From: a virus
IMG/VR virus record: IMGVR_UViG_3300048102_000232
Location: 1-41,530 of that record
Strand: one strand, 5' to 3'
DNA length: 41,530 nucleotides
Under the pieces are notes generated by a model. It was not told where the DNA came from and searched no databases. It saw only the letters and a list, made by a program, of their open reading frames with translations. Below, one piece after another: positions 1,995-38,394 of this stretch; the first letter of the stretch is position 1, and each line of letters begins with the position of its first letter. A program made the translations under genes and the position numbers.

Positions 1995-2216
1995 TTAGAG
2001 ATATTTTCTAGAATTTCTTTTTTTAGGCAACTCGTTTTTCATTCTTAACTTTCTTAAAGTCTTTTGAGCTGACTTTTTCTTTCTTTGGCGTTTTGCAGTA
2101 GGTTTTTCATAGAATTCCTTTTCTCTAGCAATTCTAATAATACCTTCTTTTTGTGTTTTTCTTTTTAAGATTCGTAATGCTTGTTCCACATTATTATTTC
2201 TAACTTCAACTTTCAT
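1995..2216 (-). CDS. rpsU: Ribosomal protein bS21
   Basis: The 73-aa protein is recognisable as bacterial bS21. It has an N-terminal KVEVRNNNVEQALRILKRK segment, the family hallmark EFYEKPTAKRQRKK near residues 34-47, and a basic helical C-terminus. I chose ATG 2216 over an in-frame ATG at 2246, because 2216 has a good AAGAAGGTGA Shine-Dalgarno upstream and gives the normal bS21 N-terminus. bS21 binds the 30S platform near the 3' end of 16S rRNA and influences initiation. Phage-borne bS21 copies are known from pelagiphages and other marine viruses. It probably replaces or competes with host bS21 during infection. It lies between a small membrane protein and a 2OG oxygenase in a late-promoter unit. 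Confidence 0.93.
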   Translation of the reverse strand: MKVEVRNNNVEQALRILKRKTQKEGIIRIAREKEFYEKPTAKRQRKKKSAQKTLRKLRMKNELPKKRNSRKYL

Positions 2217-2217
2217 A

Positions 2218-2436
2218 TTATTTTTCACCTTCTTTAAGATTATCACATTTATCTATGGCACTATCGCAAGTGTCTTCCATATTTTCAAGGTGTTCTCTTA
2301 TATCACCAAGTTTTAATCTGATAATAGTACATTCTGATTTAGCAGAATCTAGTAATCTACCTAATTTATTTAATGTAAAAAATAAGGTAATTATACATGC
2401 CCATAATACTGCTAATAATATTTCTTCTAATAACAT
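2218..2436 (-). CDS. Small single-pass membrane protein
   Basis: The 72-aa protein starts at ATG 2436, which is preceded by a strong GGAGGAG Shine-Dalgarno; a longer in-frame start upstream lacks this. Residues about 4-24 (EEILLAVLWACIITLFFTLNKL) form one hydrophobic helix. The rest is a hydrophilic, charged helical tail with two Cys near the C-terminus (EDTCDSAIDKCDN). It is the first gene of the minus-strand late unit at 2459 and runs into the bS21 gene. The size and N-terminal membrane anchor would suit a holin- or spanin-related or superinfection function, but nothing in the sequence proves this, so I do not assign one. Confidence 0.6.
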   Translation of the reverse strand: MLLEEILLAVLWACIITLFFTLNKLGRLLDSAKSECTIIRLKLGDIREHLENMEDTCDSAIDKCDNLKEGEK

Positions 2437-2458
2437 AATTCTCCTCCGAGTGTAATTG

Positions 2459-2466
2459 TATTTATA
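2459..2466 (-). promoter_or_regulatory. T4-type late promoter (TATAAATA)
   Basis: The minus strand reads TATAAATA 22 bases before the ATG of the small membrane protein. It matches exactly the T4 late-promoter element recognised by RNA polymerase with gp55. It should drive the membrane protein, bS21 and 2OG oxygenase late in infection, independently of the CobS-like gene upstream. Confidence 0.8.
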
Positions 2467-2472
2467 TGTGGC

Positions 2473-2495
2473 GAGACCGGTATGATACCGGCCTC
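2473..2495. other. GC-rich perfect hairpin between cobS-like gene and late promoter
   Basis: A 23-base near-perfect inverted repeat has two arms of GAGRCCGGTAT type around a central base. On the minus strand it folds as a 9-bp stem (one G-U pair) with a 5-base loop. It is much richer in G+C than its surroundings and lies just after the CobS-like stop codon. It has no following T-tract, so it is at best an atypical terminator; an mRNA 3'-end stabiliser or processing site is equally possible. Confidence 0.5.
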
Positions 2496-2520
2496 TGGAC
2501 ACACTATGAAATGAGATATT

Positions 2521-3759
2521 TTAGATGATGTCTTCATCTGCCTCAACCTCATCGGCGATAGGTTCATCTGATTCTTTAGACATTAATTCTTCTGGATTAA
2601 CGCCTGAATCAATCTTAGTGTACAAGTCAATGAATGATTGTTTTGTATCATCATCAAATCTGTTAGTACATACTTCAACAGCCTTCAGTTTATTTCTGAA
2701 GATTGAATATGCCTTTGCAATGTGAACAAGTCTTCTAGTAGATATGATTTCATCAACCCCACCTTCTTGGTAAGTTTTTCTGATTATATCTGCCCAATTT
2801 ACAAGATTGGTTGCATATTCATCATCTTTAGCATTTTCAGTCTCTAACATCTTTGAGATAATTTTAGTCTCAATTTTAACTGAAGGATATTTTTGTTCAA
2901 ATGTAATTGGGAATCTTTCTAGAAACGCCTCATTGAGAACATTGGTACCGATAAACTGACCGTCTTCAGAACCTTTACCTTTGGTGTTTGCAGTAGCAAC
3001 TACTGTGAAACCAAGAGCAGGTTTAACGAACTTGTTAATCTTTTTAACAAACACGCCATTGCCTTCTAAGATAGGTTGTAAACACATAATCTTATTACTT
3101 GCAAGGTCAATCTCATCAAGAAGTAAAACAGCACCTCTTTCCATTGCCTCAATAACAGGACCATTTTGCCATACAGTCTGGCCGTCTCTTAATCTGTAAC
3201 CACCGAGTAAATCATCCTCATCAGTTTCAATCGTAATATTGACCCTAATCATTTCTCTTTTTTTCTCGGCACATGCCTGAGTTACACCCAATGTCTTACC
3301 ATTACCAGAGAGACCAGTAATGAAGATAGGATAAAACTTCTTAGAGGCGATAATAGATTTTACAGAACTGTAATCGCCGAAGTTTACAAAGTTAGGGTCT
3401 TTTTCAGGCACAATATCACCTGTCAAACTAGAAACAACATAAGCCGCCTCTTGTTTGATTTCTGAATTATCTACTTTTTCAGTAGCAGGTTGGACCGATT
3501 GAACAGGTTTTTTAGTTTCAGTCATTTCGCCATCAGTAGGCAATTTGAAAAGTGCCTTACCGATTTTATTAGCAGGATTTTTGACTAACCATTGAGGTGC
3601 ATACTTCATACCAAAGTCAGCAGCCACCTCTTTTAATTGATTGACTGTCAAAACATCTTTTCCGAACTTGTCAATACAAGCATTTACAAAAGATTGTTGT
3701 TTTGCATTTAATGATTTCATAGTTTTAGTGTCTCCGTCGTTAAATTCGTTAAATTTCAT
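2521..3759 (-). CDS. cobS: CobS-like MoxR-family AAA+ ATPase
   Basis: The 412-aa protein has a helical N-terminal region (about 1-75) and a Pro/Glu-rich linker, followed by one AAA+ module. Walker A is GLSGNGKT (149-156) and Walker B is VLLLDEID (211-218). Sensor 1 Asn is in ATANT (258), an Arg finger is in LERFP (282), and a sensor-2 region is STRRLV (about 340-345). This is the CobS/MoxR type annotated as cobS in many marine T4-like phages. Cellular CobS works with CobT and CobN in aerobic cobaltochelatase. No CobN is in this window. The partner is the adjacent CobT-like protein, making a MoxR-VWA pair. A consensus sigma70 promoter lies just upstream (leader about 8 bases). An alternative start at 3720 has a GGAG 11 bases upstream. 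Cobalamin function is unproven. Confidence 0.85.
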   Translation of the reverse strand: MKFNEFNDGDTKTMKSLNAKQQSFVNACIDKFGKDVLTVNQLKEVAADFGMKYAPQWLVKNPANKIGKALFKLPTDGEMTETKKPVQSVQPATEKVDNSEIKQEAAYVVSSLTGDIVPEKDPNFVNFGDYSSVKSIIASKKFYPIFITGLSGNGKTLGVTQACAEKKREMIRVNITIETDEDDLLGGYRLRDGQTVWQNGPVIEAMERGAVLLLDEIDLASNKIMCLQPILEGNGVFVKKINKFVKPALGFTVVATANTKGKGSEDGQFIGTNVLNEAFLERFPITFEQKYPSVKIETKIISKMLETENAKDDEYATNLVNWADIIRKTYQEGGVDEIISTRRLVHIAKAYSIFRNKLKAVEVCTNRFDDDTKQSFIDLYTKIDSGVNPEELMSKESDEPIADEVEADEDII

Positions 3760-3772
3760 AGTTTATATAAGG

Positions 3773-3801
3773 ATTATAGGACATTTTTCAAGTATTGTCA
3801 A
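3773..3801 (-). promoter_or_regulatory. Consensus sigma70 promoter for cobS-like gene
   Basis: On the minus strand TTGACA (3801-3796) and TATAAT (3778-3773) are separated by exactly 17 bases, so both hexamers are perfect. Transcription should start near 3767, only about 8 bases before the ATG at 3759. The flanks (GC before TTGACA; TCC before TATAAT) and part of the spacer match the promoters at 6216 and 6368. Confidence 0.88.
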
Positions 3802-3803
3802 GC

Positions 3804-3871
3804 TTTTTTTCGGGAAAATCCCACTTTTTTTGCATTTTTTTGCATTTTTTAGTGATTTTTTCGGGAAAATC
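3804..3871. repeat. Pair of direct repeats in the cobT-cobS gap
   Basis: The 16-base string TTTTTTCGGGAAAATC occurs at 3805-3820 and 3856-3871, 51 bases apart. Between them are two copies of TGCATTTTTT (3831 and 3841). The first copy can form a GGGA-AAA-TCCC mini-hairpin. The element lies between the CobT-like stop codon and the CobS-like promoter. It may be a protein-binding site or a weak transcription attenuator; the minus-strand RNA has no U-tract, so an intrinsic terminator is unlikely. Confidence 0.5.
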
Positions 3872-3875
3872 ATGA

Positions 3876-6209
3876 TTATGCGACCTCTTCAATGAAATTA
3901 TTGAGTAGGACTCTAGATTTCAGTCTGCCGGACATTGATTTTTTGAATAATCTCTTAATATCAGAAGTTTTAGCGTCTGAATTAAGACTAGACAAGTCAG
4001 CAGATTCAACTCTAGTGTTACCGACTGTAATAAAGTACTTGTCATAACCTGATTTCTTAGTTAAATGAACATTATTCTTAGTTAAGTCTTTCATTACTAC
4101 ATCTAAGTCATAACCAACATATCTACCTTTTGAATCATGACCATCAATTGCCCAATGTAGATGTCTTCTAGACTTGTTAGGTATTAAAAAGAAACCGATA
4201 TTATTAGTATTGTATCTTTTTCTGATAATTTCAAGTAATAATGAAGTTACTCTGTCTGAATGAAAACCTCCAATGTAAGATGTATCATAGTTTTTACCAT
4301 TAACAGTAATAACTAATTTACCTTTGTATGGATAAGAAGACAATTTATAATTGCCGTCATAATCTGTATCATCATCCGCAATACCTTCGCCACTATCTGA
4401 AGCACCATCAGTCAATGTAATGAATGATAGTTTTTCTATAGCGTACTTAGATTTGAATTTTGGAATAATGTCAATCATAGTAGCAAGTGCCTGATTCAAT
4501 GGAGTAGAACCTAATTGCATACATTGTGGCAAGTAAATAGGTCTTGCAAGAGGTGAATTAGAATCATTGTCATACCAATTGATAATTGATTTACTACCGT
4601 AACCTCTGTAATCTTCACATTCTAAAGTTATGTAAAGATTTTGCATACCTTTTTCAAAGTCTTTATTATTCATTTTGTGAGATATAAAGTTTACTAGTTT
4701 ATAGTTTTTCATAAACAAGTCACCTTTTTTCAAGTCAAACGAATTAGTTATTTTTTTCCTCCAATCATAATCTTTAGAATCATAACAGTAGTAATTACTG
4801 AAAGCATAAACTTCAAATGGAATATTAATCTTTCTACAGAACCATGCAAGGTTCATCAACTGTTGGATAACAGAAGGTAATACATCAGACATAGAACCTG
4901 ACCAGTCTACTAGAATAATCATACCGTGGTTTTTAGCGTCTGGTACAATAGATAATTTTTTGAATATATCATCTGTAAACTTGTATTTACTTAACATCAT
5001 AGGGTCAATAATACCTGTTTTAGAAGTAGTAGCCCTTCTGTATGCAGTAGCAGACTTTTTCATCTCAAATTCTTTTACTAGATAATTAACTGTTTTCATA
5101 CTATCTTTTTTGAATGACTTATATCTAGACATCATTTGAGATTTGTAATCTTTATAAGAATCTTCATCAATAGTATTACCAAAGTCTTTAAACCATTGTT
5201 TGTAACTAACGATAGTATTTTCTAGATTTGCCTTAGGCAGATTTACATAAGCTCTTTTACTATCAAGAGCAGTATCAGTCAATTGTTGAACTGATTTTTC
5301 AAATTCTCTATTAGTAATACCGAAATCATCATCTTGCATATCTTGTGGTGCCATAGATGATTTCATCATTTCTTCTTCTTGTTTTTCTTTTTCTTTTATC
5401 TCTTTTAATCTGTCTTTATATTCACTATAAGTTTCATCATCTCTTTGTTGTTTTTCATCTTTTGAATCTTGACCTGAATCACTATGAGAATCTTCATCTC
5501 TCATTTCACCATCATCATCTTTATATTCTGAATCTTGTTCGCCGTCAGCGTCTTGATTGTCACCACCTTGTTTTTTATCAGCAGAGACATCCATATTGTT
5601 AGCAAACATTTCTTCATCTTTTTGTTTTTGCCATGCAAGTAATTCTTTTGCAAGTTTCATAACATCAGCAAAAGTTTTGATATCATCAACTTGTTTTAGT
5701 AATTCTGTTTCTTCATCAGAAAAATCAATATCCATTGTATTCATAGATTTACTTCTCATATTGACTTTATCTAAAAATGATAATTCGTTTATGTCATGGT
5801 CTTGCATACCATAGAAGTTAGAATCATTAAGAACTTTAAAACCTTTTTCATAGTCATTAATGATACCTGGAAATTTAGATTGTATCATTTTATCAATTCT
5901 AGTATCTTCTAGAATGTTTACAGCCATTCTTAATTTGTCATCTTTACCTATTTCTGACCAATCATCACAAGTAGTCCATAATGCATGACCACATTCATGA
6001 CCGACTAACATGTCATAAACATTTTTATTTTTGATTTTAAATATAGGAAGTGTCAATACACGATTTGCAACATCAAATGAAGCAGTAGCAACATTATTAT
6101 GTTGAACAGTAATATTCTCAGTAGCAAGTAATTTTGCCAATTGAGATTTACTGTCTAAATTTAGTGTATCTTGAAAGTTTTGTTTTTTAGTGTGTTTTAA
6201 TTTATTCAT
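3876..6209 (-). CDS. cobT: CobT-like protein: HExxH metalloprotease motif plus VWA domain
   Basis: The gene encodes 777 aa from ATG 6209. The in-frame ATG at 6248 is rejected because it lies upstream of the promoter's -35 hexamer. The N-terminal domain carries HECGH (71-75) and NILEDTR (98-104), the zinc-site pattern that leads to 'peptidase' annotations in cyanophages. An acidic, low-complexity linker follows (about 215-285, rich in D/E/K/S). The C-terminal half is a VWA domain with an intact MIDAS, DWSGSMS (435-441), and a later TLTDGASDS. The order metal-site, acidic linker, VWA is that of CobT-type proteins. It probably forms a complex with the CobS-like ATPase. The predicted transcript begins at or next to the start codon, so translation may be leaderless. 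The target is unknown. Confidence 0.85.
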   Translation of the reverse strand: MNKLKHTKKQNFQDTLNLDSKSQLAKLLATENITVQHNNVATASFDVANRVLTLPIFKIKNKNVYDMLVGHECGHALWTTCDDWSEIGKDDKLRMAVNILEDTRIDKMIQSKFPGIINDYEKGFKVLNDSNFYGMQDHDINELSFLDKVNMRSKSMNTMDIDFSDEETELLKQVDDIKTFADVMKLAKELLAWQKQKDEEMFANNMDVSADKKQGGDNQDADGEQDSEYKDDDGEMRDEDSHSDSGQDSKDEKQQRDDETYSEYKDRLKEIKEKEKQEEEMMKSSMAPQDMQDDDFGITNREFEKSVQQLTDTALDSKRAYVNLPKANLENTIVSYKQWFKDFGNTIDEDSYKDYKSQMMSRYKSFKKDSMKTVNYLVKEFEMKKSATAYRRATTSKTGIIDPMMLSKYKFTDDIFKKLSIVPDAKNHGMIILVDWSGSMSDVLPSVIQQLMNLAWFCRKINIPFEVYAFSNYYCYDSKDYDWRKKITNSFDLKKGDLFMKNYKLVNFISHKMNNKDFEKGMQNLYITLECEDYRGYGSKSIINWYDNDSNSPLARPIYLPQCMQLGSTPLNQALATMIDIIPKFKSKYAIEKLSFITLTDGASDSGEGIADDDTDYDGNYKLSSYPYKGKLVITVNGKNYDTSYIGGFHSDRVTSLLLEIIRKRYNTNNIGFFLIPNKSRRHLHWAIDGHDSKGRYVGYDLDVVMKDLTKNNVHLTKKSGYDKYFITVGNTRVESADLSSLNSDAKTSDIKRLFKKSMSGRLKSRVLLNNFIEEVA

Positions 6210-6215
6210 GTGTAC

Positions 6216-6244
6216 ATTATAGGATACTTTTAAAGCTGTGTCAA
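6216..6244 (-). promoter_or_regulatory. Consensus sigma70 promoter, proximal, for cobT-like gene
   Basis: On the minus strand TTGACA (6244-6239), a 17-base spacer and TATAAT (6221-6216) are all perfect. With +1 expected 6-9 bases after the -10 element, transcription starts at about 6209, which is the A of the chosen ATG. This predicts a leaderless mRNA. Confidence 0.88.
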
Positions 6245-6309
6245 GCACTTTCTTCCTCTATAAGTTATTGATTTATAAGGGTTTAGTAAATTAATTGAAA
6301 ATAATTTAT

Positions 6310-6324
6310 TGAGAACGATTCTCA
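6310..6324. promoter_or_regulatory. Fur-box-like palindrome TGAGAACGATTCTCA
   Basis: This 15-base inverted repeat (7-1-7) lies between the two tandem minus-strand promoters of the cobT-like gene. It differs at one position from the classic Fur/Mur-type half-site arrangement TGAGAAT-N-ATTCTCA. It lies downstream of the distal promoter start (about 6361) and upstream of the proximal -35, so a bound repressor would block the distal transcript. Regulator identity is inferred from motif similarity only. Confidence 0.45.
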
Positions 6325-6367
6325 TTTGGTCTAAATTGTTCAATATTTGTACTTTTTTCACTCTATT

Positions 6368-6396
6368 ATTATAGGATACTTTCAATATCTTGTCAA
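6368..6396 (-). promoter_or_regulatory. Consensus sigma70 promoter, distal, for cobT-like gene
   Basis: On the minus strand TTGACA (6396-6391) is followed after 17 bases by TATAAT (6373-6368). The spacer ends in AAAGTATCC, almost identical to the proximal promoter. It would give a leader of about 150 bases containing the Fur-like palindrome and then running through the second promoter. It sits back-to-back with the plus-strand late promoter at 6411. Confidence 0.85.
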
Positions 6397-6410
6397 GCTT
6401 TATTTTTTAT

Positions 6411-6418
6411 TATAAATA
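6411..6418 (+). promoter_or_regulatory. T4-type late promoter (TATAAATA) for PAAR gene
   Basis: TATAAATA ends 5 bases before ATG 6424. With the T4 geometry (element at -13 to -6), transcription starts on the A of that ATG, giving a leaderless message. It heads the plus-strand baseplate operon. Confidence 0.85.
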
Positions 6419-6423
6419 ATAAT

Positions 6424-6726
6424 ATGGCAGGTAGACCAACAATAAGAATAGGAGATTTTCATGCAGGGCATAAATGTATACAATTTCATGCTACTCCATT
6501 TATTACTGGTTCAACTGATGTTTTTATCAATAATAGGGGTGCAGTAAGATTCGGAGATAAGACAGCATGTACTGATGTAGTTATACCTACTCAAACAAGT
6601 GTATTTGTTAATGGTAGACCTATTGCAACTATGGGTAGTCCTACTACAGGACATGCCCCATGTTTTCCACCTACAGTATGTGCAAATGGTTCTCCTAATG
6701 TTTTTGCAACACAAGAAGGTTCATAA
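6424..6726 (+). CDS. PAAR-domain tail spike tip (gp5.4-like)
   Basis: The 100-aa protein is Gly/Thr/Pro-rich with repeated short strands typical of PAAR proteins: MAGRPTIRIGD at the start, VFINNRGAVRFGD, VFVNGRPIATMGSPTTGH, and a final C-A-N-G-SPNVF. His and Cys residues (HAGHKC, GHAPC) are placed to bind the single zinc at the cone tip. The length is close to T4 gp5.4 (97 aa). PAAR proteins cap the gp5/VgrG-type spike and sharpen the membrane-piercing tip. The late promoter lies immediately upstream, and the gene overlaps the next by one base (TAATG). Confidence 0.9.
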   Translation: MAGRPTIRIGDFHAGHKCIQFHATPFITGSTDVFINNRGAVRFGDKTACTDVVIPTQTSVFVNGRPIATMGSPTTGHAPCFPPTVCANGSPNVFATQEGS

Positions 6727-7112
6727 TGCCTACACAATATGGTATAACATATACAGTTTCAGATTTAACTCCTCATACTGCCACTATAAATTCGTTGGAT
6801 GAAAATACAACAATTACATTAAATATAGATAATGTAGTTTTAAACTATAATGCAGATACAACAGGTGACCCAGATGTAATTTTTAATAATGAGACATCTA
6901 TTTTTCAATATGTTTTAGATGATTACTTAGAAGGGAATCCAGGGTTAGTAAATAACAGAATATCATCATATGTTGGACAATTTTATAGTGATACTGTTTT
7001 AAATGAATTTACTATTTTTGATACTATAGAAGACGGTGTAGGAACAAGATTTTCTAGTTCTGAATTATCTTTTGATTCTTCTAGTATGAGATTTGACCGA
7101 AGAACAACATAA
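6726..7112 (+). CDS. Unknown baseplate-region protein
   Basis: I do not recognise this 128-aa protein. It is acidic, Thr/Ser/Asp-rich and predicted mostly beta in the first half. A segment in the middle (FQYVLDDYLEGNPGLVNNRIS) looks helical. It has no signal peptide, membrane segment or catalytic motif. The ATG overlaps the PAAR stop, and the stop codon lies inside the next late promoter (7108-7115). The position between the spike tip and the collar fibres suggests a small baseplate hub or spike-associated virion protein. Confidence 0.55.
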   Translation: MPTQYGITYTVSDLTPHTATINSLDENTTITLNIDNVVLNYNADTTGDPDVIFNNETSIFQYVLDDYLEGNPGLVNNRISSYVGQFYSDTVLNEFTIFDTIEDGVGTRFSSSELSFDSSSMRFDRRTT

Positions 7113-7115
7113 ATA
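7108..7115 (+). promoter_or_regulatory. Late promoter variant (CATAAATA)
   Basis: CATAAATA contains the TAA stop of the preceding gene. By T4 geometry +1 falls on base 7121, the A of the next ATG, so a leaderless transcript is predicted. Confidence 0.75.
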
Positions 7116-7120
7116 GATAT

Positions 7121-7942
7121 ATGGCAAAACAAATAATAAATTTAGGTACAACACAAGATGACGGAACAGGTACAACTCTCCGTGATGGTGGTGATATTAT
7201 AAATGATAATTTTACCGAACTATATTTTAAATTAGGTGATGGTACAACTTTATCATCTGATACATTTACTTTAAATACAGGTTCTCAAACATTAACGAAT
7301 AAATCTATTGATAGTGATAATAATACAATTACAAATATTGTAAATGCTGATATTAAATCAGGTGCAGCTATTGACGCTTCTAAAATTGCTAATGGTACTG
7401 TTTCAAGTACAGAATTTCAATATTTAAATGGTGTTACATCAAGTATACAAAATCAAATTAATGCTATTGATGTTGGTATAATAAATGCTGAAGTTATTTA
7501 TTACAGTAATAGTAGTTTTAGTAGTGGTTCATCTTATGTAACACAGTTTCAAGATTTTAGACATCCATCAGGTGGCAGAATATCAGGAACATACACAAAA
7601 GAATCTGCTTCATCAACTATTGTCGCTAACATACACTATTGTTGTAGAGAAACAGGTGGTAATCTTCATACATTTGCTATGTGGGCTAATGGTGGCAATT
7701 CTACAAGTTTATTTCAAGCAACTCATTTAGACCCTTACTACCAATCACAAAACCAAGTCAATCATACTTTTGTTACTAGATGGACAGGACTAGGTTCTGG
7801 CAGTCATACTTTTTATGCAGCTGCCGGTAGAGGAGATAATACTAACCATACTTATGTAGTAAACTTTAACGAAAATAGTTATGATGGTTTAGGTATTAAT
7901 ACTAATGGTTACTCAATGATTTACATTATGGAGATAGAATAA
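7121..7942 (+). CDS. Short tail fibre / collar-type structural protein
   Basis: The 273-aa protein begins with the fibre N-terminus common in marine T4-like phages: INLGTTQDDGTGTTLRDGGDIINDNFTELY-type residues 5-34. This is followed by a shaft-like repeat stretch (TLNTGSQTLTNKSIDSDNNTI, DASKIANGTVSSTEFQYLNG). The last 140 residues form a compact beta-rich, aromatic-containing domain (HYCCRETGGN, FAMWANGG, HTFYAAAGRG, YSMIYIMEIE) that probably binds a receptor or contacts the baseplate. The predicted message is leaderless, and the stop codon overlaps the next ATG. It is plausibly a trimeric short fibre acting with the collar-domain protein that follows. Confidence 0.7.
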   Translation: MAKQIINLGTTQDDGTGTTLRDGGDIINDNFTELYFKLGDGTTLSSDTFTLNTGSQTLTNKSIDSDNNTITNIVNADIKSGAAIDASKIANGTVSSTEFQYLNGVTSSIQNQINAIDVGIINAEVIYYSNSSFSSGSSYVTQFQDFRHPSGGRISGTYTKESASSTIVANIHYCCRETGGNLHTFAMWANGGNSTSLFQATHLDPYYQSQNQVNHTFVTRWTGLGSGSHTFYAAAGRGDNTNHTYVVNFNENSYDGLGINTNGYSMIYIMEIE

Positions 7943-8523
7943 TGTCATTAATTAAAAGAGGAAATAAAGGAACAGCATTAACTCATGATGAATTGGATGG
8001 AAATTTTACTCACTTAGGTGGTGATGGTTCTTATGTTATGCCCACAACTGATGGCACAAGTGGTCAAGTCATGTCTACAAATGGTGATGGTGTAGTTACT
8101 TTTTCAACATTAACAGGTGTAACAGCTACAATTGCAAATGCATATCCTGTAGGTTCAATTTATATGAACGCTACCAACTCAACAAATCCAGCAACACTAT
8201 TAGGATTTGGAACATGGGTATCTTTTGGTGCAGGTCGTGTTCCAGTAGGTATTAATCCTTCAGATACAGATTTTGATACAGCAGAAGAAACAGGTGGTGC
8301 AAAGAATCATACATTAACTTTATCTCAAATACCATCTCACTCTCATACAATTTCAGGGAATATTTCAAGAAGTGGTTTCTCATTTGAACATCATCAATAT
8401 AATAGTAGATTACCTGGAGAGAACTATGATACAAATCCTACTGTGTCAAATGCAGGTGGTGGTCAAGGTCACAATAACTTACAACCATATATTGTTGTCT
8501 ATATGTGGAAAAGAACAGCATAA
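7942..8523 (+). CDS. Phage tail collar domain protein (gp12-like short tail fibre)
   Basis: The 193-aa protein has an N-terminal attachment motif shared with its neighbour (KRGNKGTALTHDELDGNF). A classic tail-collar domain (PF07484 type) follows: YPVGSIYMNAT, NPATLLGFGTWVSFGAGRVPVG, TGGAKNHTLTLSQIPSHSH, and the terminal NLQPYIVVYMWKR. The H-x-H pair in SHSH is like the metal-binding His cluster of T4 gp12 receptor domains. It probably forms short receptor-binding fibres at the baseplate. The one-base TAATG overlap with 7121-7942 indicates co-translation. Confidence 0.85.
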   Translation: MSLIKRGNKGTALTHDELDGNFTHLGGDGSYVMPTTDGTSGQVMSTNGDGVVTFSTLTGVTATIANAYPVGSIYMNATNSTNPATLLGFGTWVSFGAGRVPVGINPSDTDFDTAEETGGAKNHTLTLSQIPSHSHTISGNISRSGFSFEHHQYNSRLPGENYDTNPTVSNAGGGQGHNNLQPYIVVYMWKRTA

Positions 8524-8527
8524 TCTG

Positions 8528-8535
8528 TATAAATA
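8528..8535 (+). promoter_or_regulatory. T4-type late promoter (TATAAATA) for gp25
   Basis: TATAAATA lies just after the collar gene stop. The predicted +1 is near 8541, leaving a leader of only about 4 bases before ATG 8545, too short for a Shine-Dalgarno. Confidence 0.82.
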
Positions 8536-8544
8536 GTTAGCGTT

Positions 8545-8970
8545 ATGCCAAAATGGGACGCTACAAATACTAACAATTCAAGTAGAATCAGTAGGACTTT
8601 TAAAGACCTAGATTTAGACTTTGGTTTAAATTCAATAACTAAGGATGTAAATAGACTTACAGATGTTGAATCTATTAAGAGAAGTGTAAGAAATCTAATT
8701 AATACAAATAATTATGAGAGACCATTTCACCCAGAAATTGGTTCTGGTATAAGAGGTTTATTATTTGAACCTATGACAGAATTAACATCTCATTTCATGA
8801 GACAAAGATTATCTGACATGTTAAATGAATATGAACCTAGAATAGTAGTTAAAAATATAAAAGTAAGACCGGATGGAGATAGAAACTCATATTTTTGCAG
8901 TATTACTTTTACCATAATAGGCACATTAGAACCAGTAGTAGTAGAAACATTTTTAGAGAGAATAAGATAA
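8545..8970 (+). CDS. 25: Baseplate wedge subunit gp25
   Basis: The 141-aa protein has the gp25/lysozyme-like wedge fold signature: the SIKRSVRNLINTNNYERPFHPEIGSG region (about 43-68), LLFEPMTE, and the EPR core motif (YEPRIVV, about 96-102), ending in TLEPVVVETFLERIR. T4 gp25 is 132 aa. gp25 joins gp6 and gp53 and contacts the first sheath ring, triggering contraction. The gene is one base from gp6. Confidence 0.95.
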   Translation: MPKWDATNTNNSSRISRTFKDLDLDFGLNSITKDVNRLTDVESIKRSVRNLINTNNYERPFHPEIGSGIRGLLFEPMTELTSHFMRQRLSDMLNEYEPRIVVKNIKVRPDGDRNSYFCSITFTIIGTLEPVVVETFLERIR

Positions 8971-13454: not shown

Positions 13455-13462
13455 TATAAATA
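13455..13462 (+). promoter_or_regulatory. T4-type late promoter (TATAAATA) for gp8
   Basis: TATAAATA follows the gp7-like stop. The predicted +1 near 13468 gives a 26-base leader with a TGAGGATAA Shine-Dalgarno-like stretch before ATG 13494. Confidence 0.82.
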
Positions 13463-27698: not shown

Positions 27699-29234
27699 AT
27701 GGCAGTTAAAACACCTATACGAGGCGTCTTTAGTGGCAGTACGGCCACAGGACTTGCCGAGTTTCAATCAGGCGATTTTATAGGACTAACACATGGTGGT
27801 TTGGGTGCTTCGTTATCTATTGGTTCTGCCGGTCAAGTATTAAAAGTAAATTCTGGTGCTTCAGCATTAGAGTTTGGTTCTGTTGAGGCAATCGTAAATA
27901 TAGATGGTGCAACTGATTTAGAAAGTGCCACACTAGCTGTAGGTGATAAACTATTAGTATCAGATGGTGGTACAGAAGGTAGAGTATTATTATCACAATT
28001 AGATACTTTATATTCAGGTACAACAAAAACACTTACAAACAAAACAATAAGTGGTAGTGCAAATACTTTATCAAATATTGGTAATAGCTCATTAAGTAAT
28101 TCATCTGTAAACTTTGGTGGAGTTACAGTAGCACTTGGTGCTTCTGATACAACTCCTGCTTTTGATTTATCAGACGCTACTAATTATCCAACATCATCAT
28201 TAACAGGTACTATTACAAATGCTCAATTAGCAGGTTCTATCGCAAACGATAAATTATCAAATTCAACAGTATCTTATGGCGGAGTATCATTAGCATTAGG
28301 TGCTTCAGATTCTACACCCGCTTTTGACTTATCGGATGCTACTAATTATCCGACTTCTTCATTAACAGGTACTATTACAAATGCTCAATTAGCAGGTTCA
28401 ATTGCAAATGCTAAATTATCAAATTCAACAATAACAGTTTCAGATGGTTCAAACTCAACTGCTACTGCTTTAGGTGGAACGGTAACTTTTGCAGGAACAA
28501 ATAACGAAGTTACTGTTGCCGAATCTTCTGGCACAATTACAATAGGTTTACCAGATAATGTTACTATCGCAGGTAATTTAACTGTAAGTGGTACAACAAC
28601 TGAAGTATCATCAACAACAATTAATGTTGCAGACCCACTATTGAGTATGGCAACAAATAACAATTCTGCTGACGCTGTTGATATAGGATTTTATGGATTA
28701 TATGATACATCAGGTTCACAAGATTTGTATGCTGGGTTATTTAGAGACGCTAGTGATTCAGGTAAATTTAAATTATTTAAAGATAACCAGGCTGAACCTA
28801 CAACAACTGTAAATACAAGTGGTACAGGATACGCTGTAGGAACACTTGTTGCAAACTTAGAAGGAAATGTTACAGGTAATGTAACAGGAAATGCAGATAC
28901 ATCAACTGCTTTAGCAACAGCAAGAAACATTGGTGGTGTATCTTTTGATGGTTCTGCTAGTATAAATTTACCAGGTGTTAATACATCAGGTAATCAAGAT
29001 ACATCTGGAAATGCAGCTACGGCTACAGTATTAGAAACTGCTAGAACAATAAATAATGTATCATTTGATGGTTCAGCAAATATAGATGTAGGTACTGTTA
29101 CATCAGGTTCAACATCAATAACATCTAATTTAGGTTCTATGGCACTAAACTCAGAAAGACTAGACACGCCTGTAGGGTTTATTACTATAAACATAGGGGG
29201 AACTAACTATAAATTGCCTTATTATAGTGCATAA
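27699..29234 (+). CDS. Tail fibre protein with internal 54-residue tandem repeat
   Basis: The 511-aa protein has an N-terminal region (GVFSGSTATGLAEFQSGDF, GGLGASLSIGSAGQVLKVNS) that is a marine fibre head module. It is followed by the shaft motif LYSGTTKTLTNKTISGSAN. Residues about 136-243 are two copies of a 54-residue unit (GGVSLALGASDSTPAFDLSD, TSSLTGTITNAQLAGSIAN). Distal segments NVTIAGNLTVSGTTTEVSSTTI and ADPLLSMATNNNSADAVDIGFYG resemble conserved fibre collars. The C-terminus (INIGGTNYKLPYYSA) has no S74 domain. It is the last gene before the neck module, near the place of T4 wac. Its stop lies within the next late promoter. Confidence 0.75.
   Translation: MAVKTPIRGVFSGSTATGLAEFQSGDFIGLTHGGLGASLSIGSAGQVLKVNSGASALEFGSVEAIVNIDGATDLESATLAVGDKLLVSDGGTEGRVLLSQLDTLYSGTTKTLTNKTISGSANTLSNIGNSSLSNSSVNFGGVTVALGASDTTPAFDLSDATNYPTSSLTGTITNAQLAGSIANDKLSNSTVSYGGVSLALGASDSTPAFDLSDATNYPTSSLTGTITNAQLAGSIANAKLSNSTITVSDGSNSTATALGGTVTFAGTNNEVTVAESSGTITIGLPDNVTIAGNLTVSGTTTEVSSTTINVADPLLSMATNNNSADAVDIGFYGLYDTSGSQDLYAGLFRDASDSGKFKLFKDNQAEPTTTVNTSGTGYAVGTLVANLEGNVTGNVTGNADTSTALATARNIGGVSFDGSASINLPGVNTSGNQDTSGNAATATVLETARTINNVSFDGSANIDVGTVTSGSTSITSNLGSMALNSERLDTPVGFITINIGGTNYKLPYYSA
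28104..28427 (+). repeat. In-gene tandem repeat, 162-base period
   Basis: Copies at 28104-28265 and 28266-28427 encode the 54-residue fibre unit. Identical long strings such as ACAGGTACTATTACAAATGC lie 162 bases apart, so this duplication is younger than the 237-base repeat at 21335. It is a natural site for copy-number change. Confidence 0.85.
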
Positions 29235-29237
29235 ATA
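29230..29237 (+). promoter_or_regulatory. Late promoter variant (CATAAATA) for gp13
   Basis: The element contains the fibre gene's TAA stop. The predicted +1 near 29243 leaves a 13-base leader with AGAGGAATTA before ATG 29256. Confidence 0.75.
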
Positions 29238-32834: not shown

Positions 32835-33505
32835 GTAATTTATTAGAAAAAAAATATGTAGTAATTAAAAATATATTATCAAAAGAATTAACAGAAGTTT
32901 ATTATAATTATGTTTATAGAAGGCGTGATGTTTATGCTACCTTAAAAAGACATGGTTTTATTAATCCTTTTACTGATGACTATGGTTGGGAAGGTGACCG
33001 TCAAACACGAAATACCTTTAACATGTATGGTGATGTTTTGTTTGATAATATGATGTTGGATTTAAAATCAAGAATAGAAAAAGAAACAGATTTGGAACTA
33101 TCTGAAATGTATACTTATTGGAGAATATATTCAGAAACATCTGAATTGAAAAGACATAAAGATAGAGGTTCTTGTGAAATTTCAGGAACAATAAATTTAG
33201 GTGGAACTCCTTGGCCGATTTACATAGACCCTAATCCTAAAAATGGTTACTATGAAACAACAAAAAAAGGTAATGAAAAATATATTGCTGGAGGTGAAAA
33301 TGGTGTAGAAGTTTTATTGGAACCAGGTGATTGTATGATATACACAGGAAAAGATTGTGAACATTGGAGAGAGCCATTGATGGAAGGTGAGTGTGCTCAA
33401 GTCTTTACTCATTATAGACAAACAAAAGATGTAAATGAAGAAGATAAATTTGATAGAAGATTAGGTCTTGGCATGCCTAGTTATACTAAAAAGATAAATA
33501 GTTAA
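32831..33505 (+). CDS. 2OG-Fe(II) oxygenase, second of pair
   Basis: The 224-aa protein carries H109-x-D111 in LKRHKDRGSCEISGT as the first two iron ligands and a distal His in CEHWREPL (H178). LEPGDCMIYTGKDCEHWRE is the strand preceding that His. The co-substrate Arg is not obvious in the usual position; R180 or R196 could serve. It is clearly different from its neighbour and from the minus-strand oxygenase at 1419, so the three have distinct substrates or origins. The late promoter for gp16 lies within its last codons. Confidence 0.83.
   Translation: MSNLLEKKYVVIKNILSKELTEVYYNYVYRRRDVYATLKRHGFINPFTDDYGWEGDRQTRNTFNMYGDVLFDNMMLDLKSRIEKETDLELSEMYTYWRIYSETSELKRHKDRGSCEISGTINLGGTPWPIYIDPNPKNGYYETTKKGNEKYIAGGENGVEVLLEPGDCMIYTGKDCEHWREPLMEGECAQVFTHYRQTKDVNEEDKFDRRLGLGMPSYTKKINS
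33493..33500 (+). promoter_or_regulatory. Late promoter variant (GATAAATA) for gp16
   Basis: The element is embedded in the last codons of the oxygenase gene. By T4 geometry +1 is base 33506, exactly the A of the gp16 ATG: a third predicted leaderless late transcript. Confidence 0.72.
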
Positions 33506-33958
33506 ATGGCAACAGATGATATAATAAATAAATATCTAGGAGTAGAAACTGAAGATTCTAAACCAGAATCTAAGCCACCTGCTGTCATTAGAAAAGAAGA
33601 CAAAGAAACAGATGTAGATAATGACCATGATTATTCTAGAGAGGCGTATTACGATTTAATACAAAAAGGTCAAGAGGCAATAGATGGTATACTTTCTGTT
33701 GCAAAAGAAGGAGAACATCCAAGAGCATATGAAGTAGCAGGTCAGTTAATAAAAAGTGTAGGTGATACTGTTGATAAATTACAAGATTTAAATAAAAAAT
33801 TAAAAGATTTAAAAGAATTACCTAAAAGTGCTGATACTAAAATTCAAAATGCTTTGTTTGTAGGTTCAACTGCTGAATTACAGAAGATGTTAAAGAAAGA
33901 TGAAAATACTAAGAGCAAAGTCATCAATACCAAACATAGAGATATTTCAGATAAGTGA
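33506..33958 (+). CDS. 16: Terminase small subunit gp16
   Basis: The 150-aa protein (T4 gp16 is 164 aa) has an acidic, flexible N-terminus. The conserved central helical hairpin is SREAYYDLIQKGQEAIDGIL, then EGEHPRAYEVAGQLIKSVGD with DKLQDLNKKLKDL, and a basic C-terminus follows. gp16 forms rings that bind DNA and stimulate the gp17 motor. Position next to gp17 is as in T4. It overlaps the next ORF by 59 bases. Confidence 0.9.
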   Translation: MATDDIINKYLGVETEDSKPESKPPAVIRKEDKETDVDNDHDYSREAYYDLIQKGQEAIDGILSVAKEGEHPRAYEVAGQLIKSVGDTVDKLQDLNKKLKDLKELPKSADTKIQNALFVGSTAELQKMLKKDENTKSKVINTKHRDISDK

Positions 33959-38386: not shown

Positions 38387-38394
38387 TATAAATA
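38387..38394 (+). promoter_or_regulatory. T4-type late promoter (TATAAATA) for portal
   Basis: TATAAATA after the gp19 stop has its predicted +1 near 38400. The 22-base leader contains AGAGGAAAA before ATG 38422. Confidence 0.82.

Follow-up and report, generated by a model that had tools for sequence, protein, structure and literature searches.

A conserved late-promoter layout predicted to give leaderless messages, and a probably separate phage bS21, in a pelagimyophage-type T4-like phage

Does a phage-encoded ribosomal protein bS21 explain why some late genes of the same phage have promoters that abut their start codons? The question is raised by the stretch of DNA analysed here, the window (IMG/VR record IMGVR_UViG_3300048102_000232, positions 1 to 41,530), a 41.5-kb virus record that contains T4-like late genes and whose portal shows 80% identity to its counterpart in Pelagibacter phage Mosig EXVC030M, versus about 57-60% to the portals of Melnitz, HTVC008M and cyanophages. 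In the model of a first-pass annotation, phage bS21 would take the place of the host protein and bias ribosomes toward leaderless or Shine-Dalgarno (SD)-poor phage messages. The explanation that we consider probable is a different one as a whole: the window is part of a pelagimyophage-type T4-like genome, the late genes follow a conserved clade-specific promoter layout and are translated by start-codon recognition, and bS21 is a separate, already described trait. The bS21 gene and its neighbours on the same strand are arranged as follows:

1995..2216 (-): phage bS21 gene, 73 aa, a conserved pelagimyophage gene (PMC7029224)
2218..2436 (-): 72-aa hydrophobic ORF ahead of bS21, SD GGAGGAG, leader 17
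2459..2466 (-): late promoter box TATAAATA of the SD-led class, for the bS21 operon
2464..2504 (-): strong hairpin (-22 kcal/mol, z -4.9) separating CobS from the late promoter of bS21
2521..3759 (-): CobS-like gene, sigma70 promoter, leader about 7 to ATG 3759; alternative ATG 3720 with conserved GGAG
3876..6209 (-): CobT-like / peptidase gene, leader 0 predicted for transcription from the proximal sigma70 promoter
6216..6244 (-): proximal sigma70 promoter of CobT, TTGACA-17-TATAAT, 12/12, +1 on the ATG
6368..6396 (-): distal sigma70 promoter of CobT, 12/12

The bS21 assignment is genuine, with a PF01165 match over the gene length (63.7 bits against a cut-off of 27, profile positions 1-54 of 55). 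Profile searches also recovered bS21 in HTVC008M, Mosig and Melnitz and gave no match in T4, KVP40 and eight cyanophages, in agreement with a published survey that sets pelagimyophages apart from cyanomyophages in this respect (PMC7029224). Other cultured phages with a match are Pelagibacter siphophages and jumbo phages, e.g. Atu_ph07 and the PA5oct group. The choice of query affected recovery: the window bS21 used as a tblastn query against cultured phages gave no match, though HTVC008M, Mosig and Melnitz carry the gene, and a query from HTVC008M worked; in bacterial genomes, a first scan with the window bS21 found no relative, and an alignment query recovered alphaproteobacterial bS21, SAR11 included. 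Three IMG/VR contigs (G005, G007 and G009) lacking a match are of uncertain completeness and were excluded as negatives. In the window, the late box at 2466 is followed by the 72-aa ORF (with its GGAGG site) and then by bS21. Phage bS21 is probably a separate, late-expressed ribosomal protein typical of the pelagimyophage clade. Read-through from the CobS promoter into bS21 is possible but probably reduced, because the strong hairpin separates the two. This hairpin is very stable, adjoins the late promoter of the operon and has no clear T-run. By eye, a tRNA-like sequence stands directly before bS21 in Melnitz, and the corresponding stretch in HTVC008M has a tRNA-like look (loci L243 and L230).

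The late genes were assigned predicted transcription starts from their promoter boxes, with +1 placed 13 nt downstream of the first base of NATAAATA; the T4 late box sits at -13..-6 (PMC2988020). The boxes and genes concerned, together with three boxes of a contrast class, are:

6411..6418 (+): late promoter box TATAAATA of PAAR, leader 0
6424..6726 (+): PAAR gene, message predicted to be leaderless
7108..7115 (+): late promoter box CATAAATA ahead of the fibre/connector gene, leader 0
7121..7942 (+): gene resembling a baseplate wedge-tail fibre connector, message predicted to be leaderless
8528..8535 (+): late promoter box ahead of gp25, leader 4
8545..8970 (+): gp25 baseplate wedge gene, leader 4 (3-4 in 38/38 relatives; 0 in HTVC008M)
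33493..33500 (+): late promoter box GATAAATA of gp16, leader 0
33506..33958 (+): gp16 terminase small subunit, message predicted to be leaderless
13455..13462 (+): late box of gp8, contrast class, leader 26
29230..29237 (+): late box of gp13, contrast class, leader 13 with GAGG
38387..38394 (+): late box of gp20 portal, contrast class, leader 22 with GAGG

Where the 8-bp box lies exactly 5 bp before an ATG, predicted transcription therefore begins at the A of that ATG, and the message would be leaderless. Late-box spacing thus bears out the annotated starts on the ATGs of PAAR (6424), the fibre gene (7121) and gp16 (33506), as well as the 4-base leader of gp25 (8545); seven other window genes have leaders of 13-26. 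Both distances exceed chance in the window, with three boxes at leader 0 (control 0.00; no leader-0 site with twenty permuted motifs) and seven at 9-30 (control 1.45). The placement of +1 is independently supported, because the predicted +1 of SD-led late promoters in the pelagimyophage group is A in 75% and C in 0% of cases; it is a purine in 89%, as in T4-type late promoters. The gp55/gp33/gp45-dependent late promoters of T4 have the same box (TATAAATA at -13..-6), the same preference for a purine at +1 and the same association with late structural genes. Late sigma factors of the gp55 type are annotated in Mosig, HTVC008M and Melnitz; the 41.5-kb fragment yielded none. Such a clear box and spacing should help annotation, since the survey of pelagimyophages could not satisfactorily predict their late promoters (PMC7029224).

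Scans of whole genomes, run in 20-kb pieces that miss a few genes where pieces meet and, in some records, the final 0.2-12 kb, found exact leader 0 at five genes in Mosig, six in HTVC008M, three in Melnitz and three in the window, against 0-0.2 with permuted motifs. Cyanophages P-SSM4, P-HM1 and P-SSM2 have two, one and one, respectively; T4, Syn9, S-PM2, S-H38 and KVP40 have no leader-0 late gene in the same scan, in contrast to the whole class of them found here. For gp16, 75 IMG/VR loci yielded 45 distinct 40-nt upstream regions (two more loci had no start), of which 37 have leader 0 (one also with a second box), three leader 1, two leader 6 or 7, and three no box; information content is concentrated in the box, not in the stretch upstream. 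No such late promoter lies upstream of gp16 in Mosig, HTVC008M or Melnitz. Two counts were made for gp2. With the ATG nearest the expected start, 79 readable IMG/VR loci gave 55 at leader 0, nine at 1, three at 2, six at 3 and six at 24; all 79 can be read as leader 0-3, because by eye the six rows at 24 have an outer in-frame ATG at leader 0. With deduplication and the longest in-frame ATG, 53 distinct upstream regions gave 39 at 0, six at 1, three at 2 and three at 3, plus a single region at 25 and another with no box. The last two, most likely L381 and L403, are read as start-choice artefacts, since both of these loci have leader 0 under the nearest-ATG count; their longest ATGs lie 6 and 324 nt upstream of the nearest-expected one. 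PAAR has leader 0 in the five relatives with a readable start, the other seven having no start at the aligned position, and the fibre gene homologues of Mosig and Melnitz have an SD-length leader instead. The conservation of gp25 adds little, because its leader is nearly identical in sequence among the 38 relatives. As a feature of the sequence, the predicted promoter-to-ATG spacing is conserved across dozens of lineages of marine T4-like phages with kinship to phages of SAR11 and methylotrophs, and the original observation is confirmed more strongly than the first-pass annotation could know.

The messages might still not be leaderless in practice, if they start elsewhere or arise by read-through with coupling to the upstream gene. 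Long late operons favour this reading, as does the ATG of gp16, which immediately follows the upstream stop (TAA then ATG), but the exact 5-nt spacing is conserved while its flanks vary, and PAAR and CobT are transcribed divergently, the + strand upstream of PAAR having just one weak (9/12) promoter match. Many gp2 promoters, moreover, have a terminator-like hairpin with a T-rich stretch just upstream (18/53 distinct regions, against 3% of random positions), mostly with a 12-bp stem and a 4-nt loop, one of the 18 (L375) being weak; gp2 and gp3 of Mosig have the same hairpin-then-promoter arrangement. From this arrangement, genes behind such a hairpin probably do not rely on read-through messages that carry a leader, and the reading is improbable overall, with the caveat that at gp16 and the fibre gene upstream read-through could supply a leader and translational coupling. 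At gp2 loci L376-L390 and similar ones, the 12-bp stem and a GAAA-type loop are kept and the stem sequence varies.

The two groups of late genes also separate by SD use. Among six pelagimyophage-type records, an SD 4-mer precedes 2/32 late genes with leader 0-5, in keeping with the lack of SD sites in leaderless mRNAs, versus 38/53 with leader 9-30; for cyanophage late genes with leader 9-30 the figure is 27/105. The earlier claim that structural genes needed in bulk keep strong SD sites holds for gp18, gp19 and gp20, which have SD-like sequences, but gp21 (prohead protease) has only a weak one. We propose that gp55-type late promoters come in two layouts, with the box abutting the ATG or with a 9-30 nt leader carrying an SD site. 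The leaderless or 1-5 nt layout would comprise PAAR, the fibre connector, gp16 and gp25 here and gp2, gp3 and others in relatives; ordinary host ribosomes probably translate these genes by recognizing the 5'-terminal AUG, and the layout may serve as a compact expression module, perhaps of low output, for parts of which few copies are required. This dosage idea draws on copy numbers from T4 and fits imperfectly, since gp13 and gp8 are low-copy too but SD-led. We infer the 5' ends, the translation mode and the dosage role; box spacing, its conservation, the absence of SD sites and the upstream hairpins are observed.

The layout could instead reflect the host: if SAR11 and OM43 ribosomes initiate well without SD sites, ATG-abutting promoters are affordable and bS21 is uninvolved. 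SAR11 genes are indeed SD-poor, with SD sites at 12% and 10% of unambiguous starts (two partial single-cell genomes, simple gene calls), versus 39-41%, about four times more, in the window, Mosig and HTVC008M. The layout is largely missing from cyanophages and coliphages, whose hosts are different, and CobT is near-leaderless from a sigma70-type promoter. However, cyanophage SD use is also low, yet leader-0 late genes are rare there, and TATAAT shows no peak at leaderless distance in the SAR11 sample, for which reason SAR11 was set aside as a leaderless host. Host adaptation is thus conceivable as the whole account, although we do not think it likely.

Having preferred a clade-specific promoter layout, we turn to bS21. 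Leader-0 and leader 9-30 late genes stand at 17:42 in four pelagimyophage-type genomes with bS21 versus 4:143 in eight genomes without it (Fisher p 2e-7), the cyanophages having neither bS21 nor more than a few leader-0 genes, a contrast in which the genes are non-independent and which represents a single clade contrast rather than many independent events. The two traits thus occur together in the T4-like phages tested, as had been annotated, but the association is confounded with clade. Jumbo phage Atu_ph07 carries bS21 and T4-type late promoters, with 30 late genes at 9-30 (permuted-motif control 9.6), and has no leader-0 late gene across 400 kb; P-SSM4 lacks bS21 and has its two leader-0 genes, so the leaderless layout does not accompany bS21 in independent lineages. 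The near-leaderless CobT gene has a promoter of the sigma70 type, and the nearest bS21 promoter is late and stands behind the strong hairpin. A homologue of bS21 from HTVC008M enters E. coli ribosomes, the only ribosomes for which incorporation is known, and these then translate poorly in a standard assay (PMC6375957), which speaks for the first-pass proposal; phage late genes are nevertheless SD-rich, and the phage is richer in SD sites than SAR11. From these comparisons the link between the leaderless layout and bS21 is unproven, with the evidence leaning against it, and the part of the first-pass proposal in which bS21 shifts ribosomes to leaderless or SD-poor messages appears very improbable.

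Given where bS21 is known to sit and act, near the anti-SD, any effect would be expected on the SD-led class. Phage bS21 might strengthen SD-dependent initiation, favouring SD-led phage late messages over mostly SD-poor host messages. The fourfold difference in SD use, the SD-rich late genes with leader 9-30, the canonical 3' end of SAR11 16S rRNA (CCTCC retained) and the late, SD-led bS21 operon of the window all speak for this, as does the need for bS21 if E. coli is to initiate normally (cited in PMC9723584). Late genes of T4 and KVP40, however, are SD-rich without bS21, and the host side of the comparison comes from only the two partial genomes with simple gene calls; we regard the proposal as unlikely, if less so than its converse. 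Still more doubtful is a combination in which leaderless messages supply scarce parts and strong-SD messages bulk ones in a mostly SD-poor host, with bS21 retuning the ribosome so that both classes outcompete host messages.

Leaderless mRNAs are known from lambda cI and from many actinobacteria and archaea. The messages predicted here likewise have the start codon at the 5' end and no SD site, but they belong to lytic late genes of a T4-like clade, in a layout that is conserved, and are known by prediction only. Conserved, predicted leaderless late genes in an abundant ocean phage clade would be an unusual promoter layout for lytic T4-like phages, and some of them are apparently shielded from read-through by a terminator-like hairpin. 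Two formerly joined ideas, leaderless late genes and phage bS21, are thereby separated, and the contrast between SD-rich phage and SD-poor SAR11 bears on why these phages carry bS21. Selection of phage transcripts by phage bS21 is an already published hypothesis (PMC6375957, PMC9723584), concerning pelagimyophage (HTVC008M) and Bacteroidetes phage proteins of the same family and in the same late setting; in the portions of text covered here, neither paper draws a link to leaderless messages, and a word search of the available text of the Bacteroidetes phage paper (PMC9723584) did not return 'leaderless'. Flavobacterium, with bS21-dependent anti-SD sequestration (PMC9976891), resembles SAR11 as an SD-poor host with an intact anti-SD, but such sequestration is not evident in SAR11, and the likeness concerns SD use and the 16S 3' end.

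The CobS- and CobT-like genes had also been annotated as nearly leaderless. For CobT, a start on the ATG (6209) agrees with the proximal 12/12 promoter, whose spacing to the ATG is kept within 0-1 nt in about 20 relatives and which is presumably early, but transcripts from the distal promoter (6396-6368) could have a leader of some 150 nt. For CobS, the annotated leader of about 8 has the right promoter and comes to about 7, but the in-frame ATG at 3720 is possibly the real start, and on account of this second ATG, with its conserved GGAG, CobS was removed from the leaderless examples. The three sigma70-type promoters of these genes (3759-3810, 6216-6244 and 6368-6396) have in common an extended TCCTATAAT at the -10 box, of which relatives have CCATATAAT variants. 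Upstream of CobS and CobT, HTVC008M and Mosig have early-type promoters with a TAGGAT-like -10, and the ATG lies a few nt past the predicted start. The intergenic region between CobT and PAAR contains a palindrome, GAGAACGATTCTC, at 6310-6325, which is possibly an operator.
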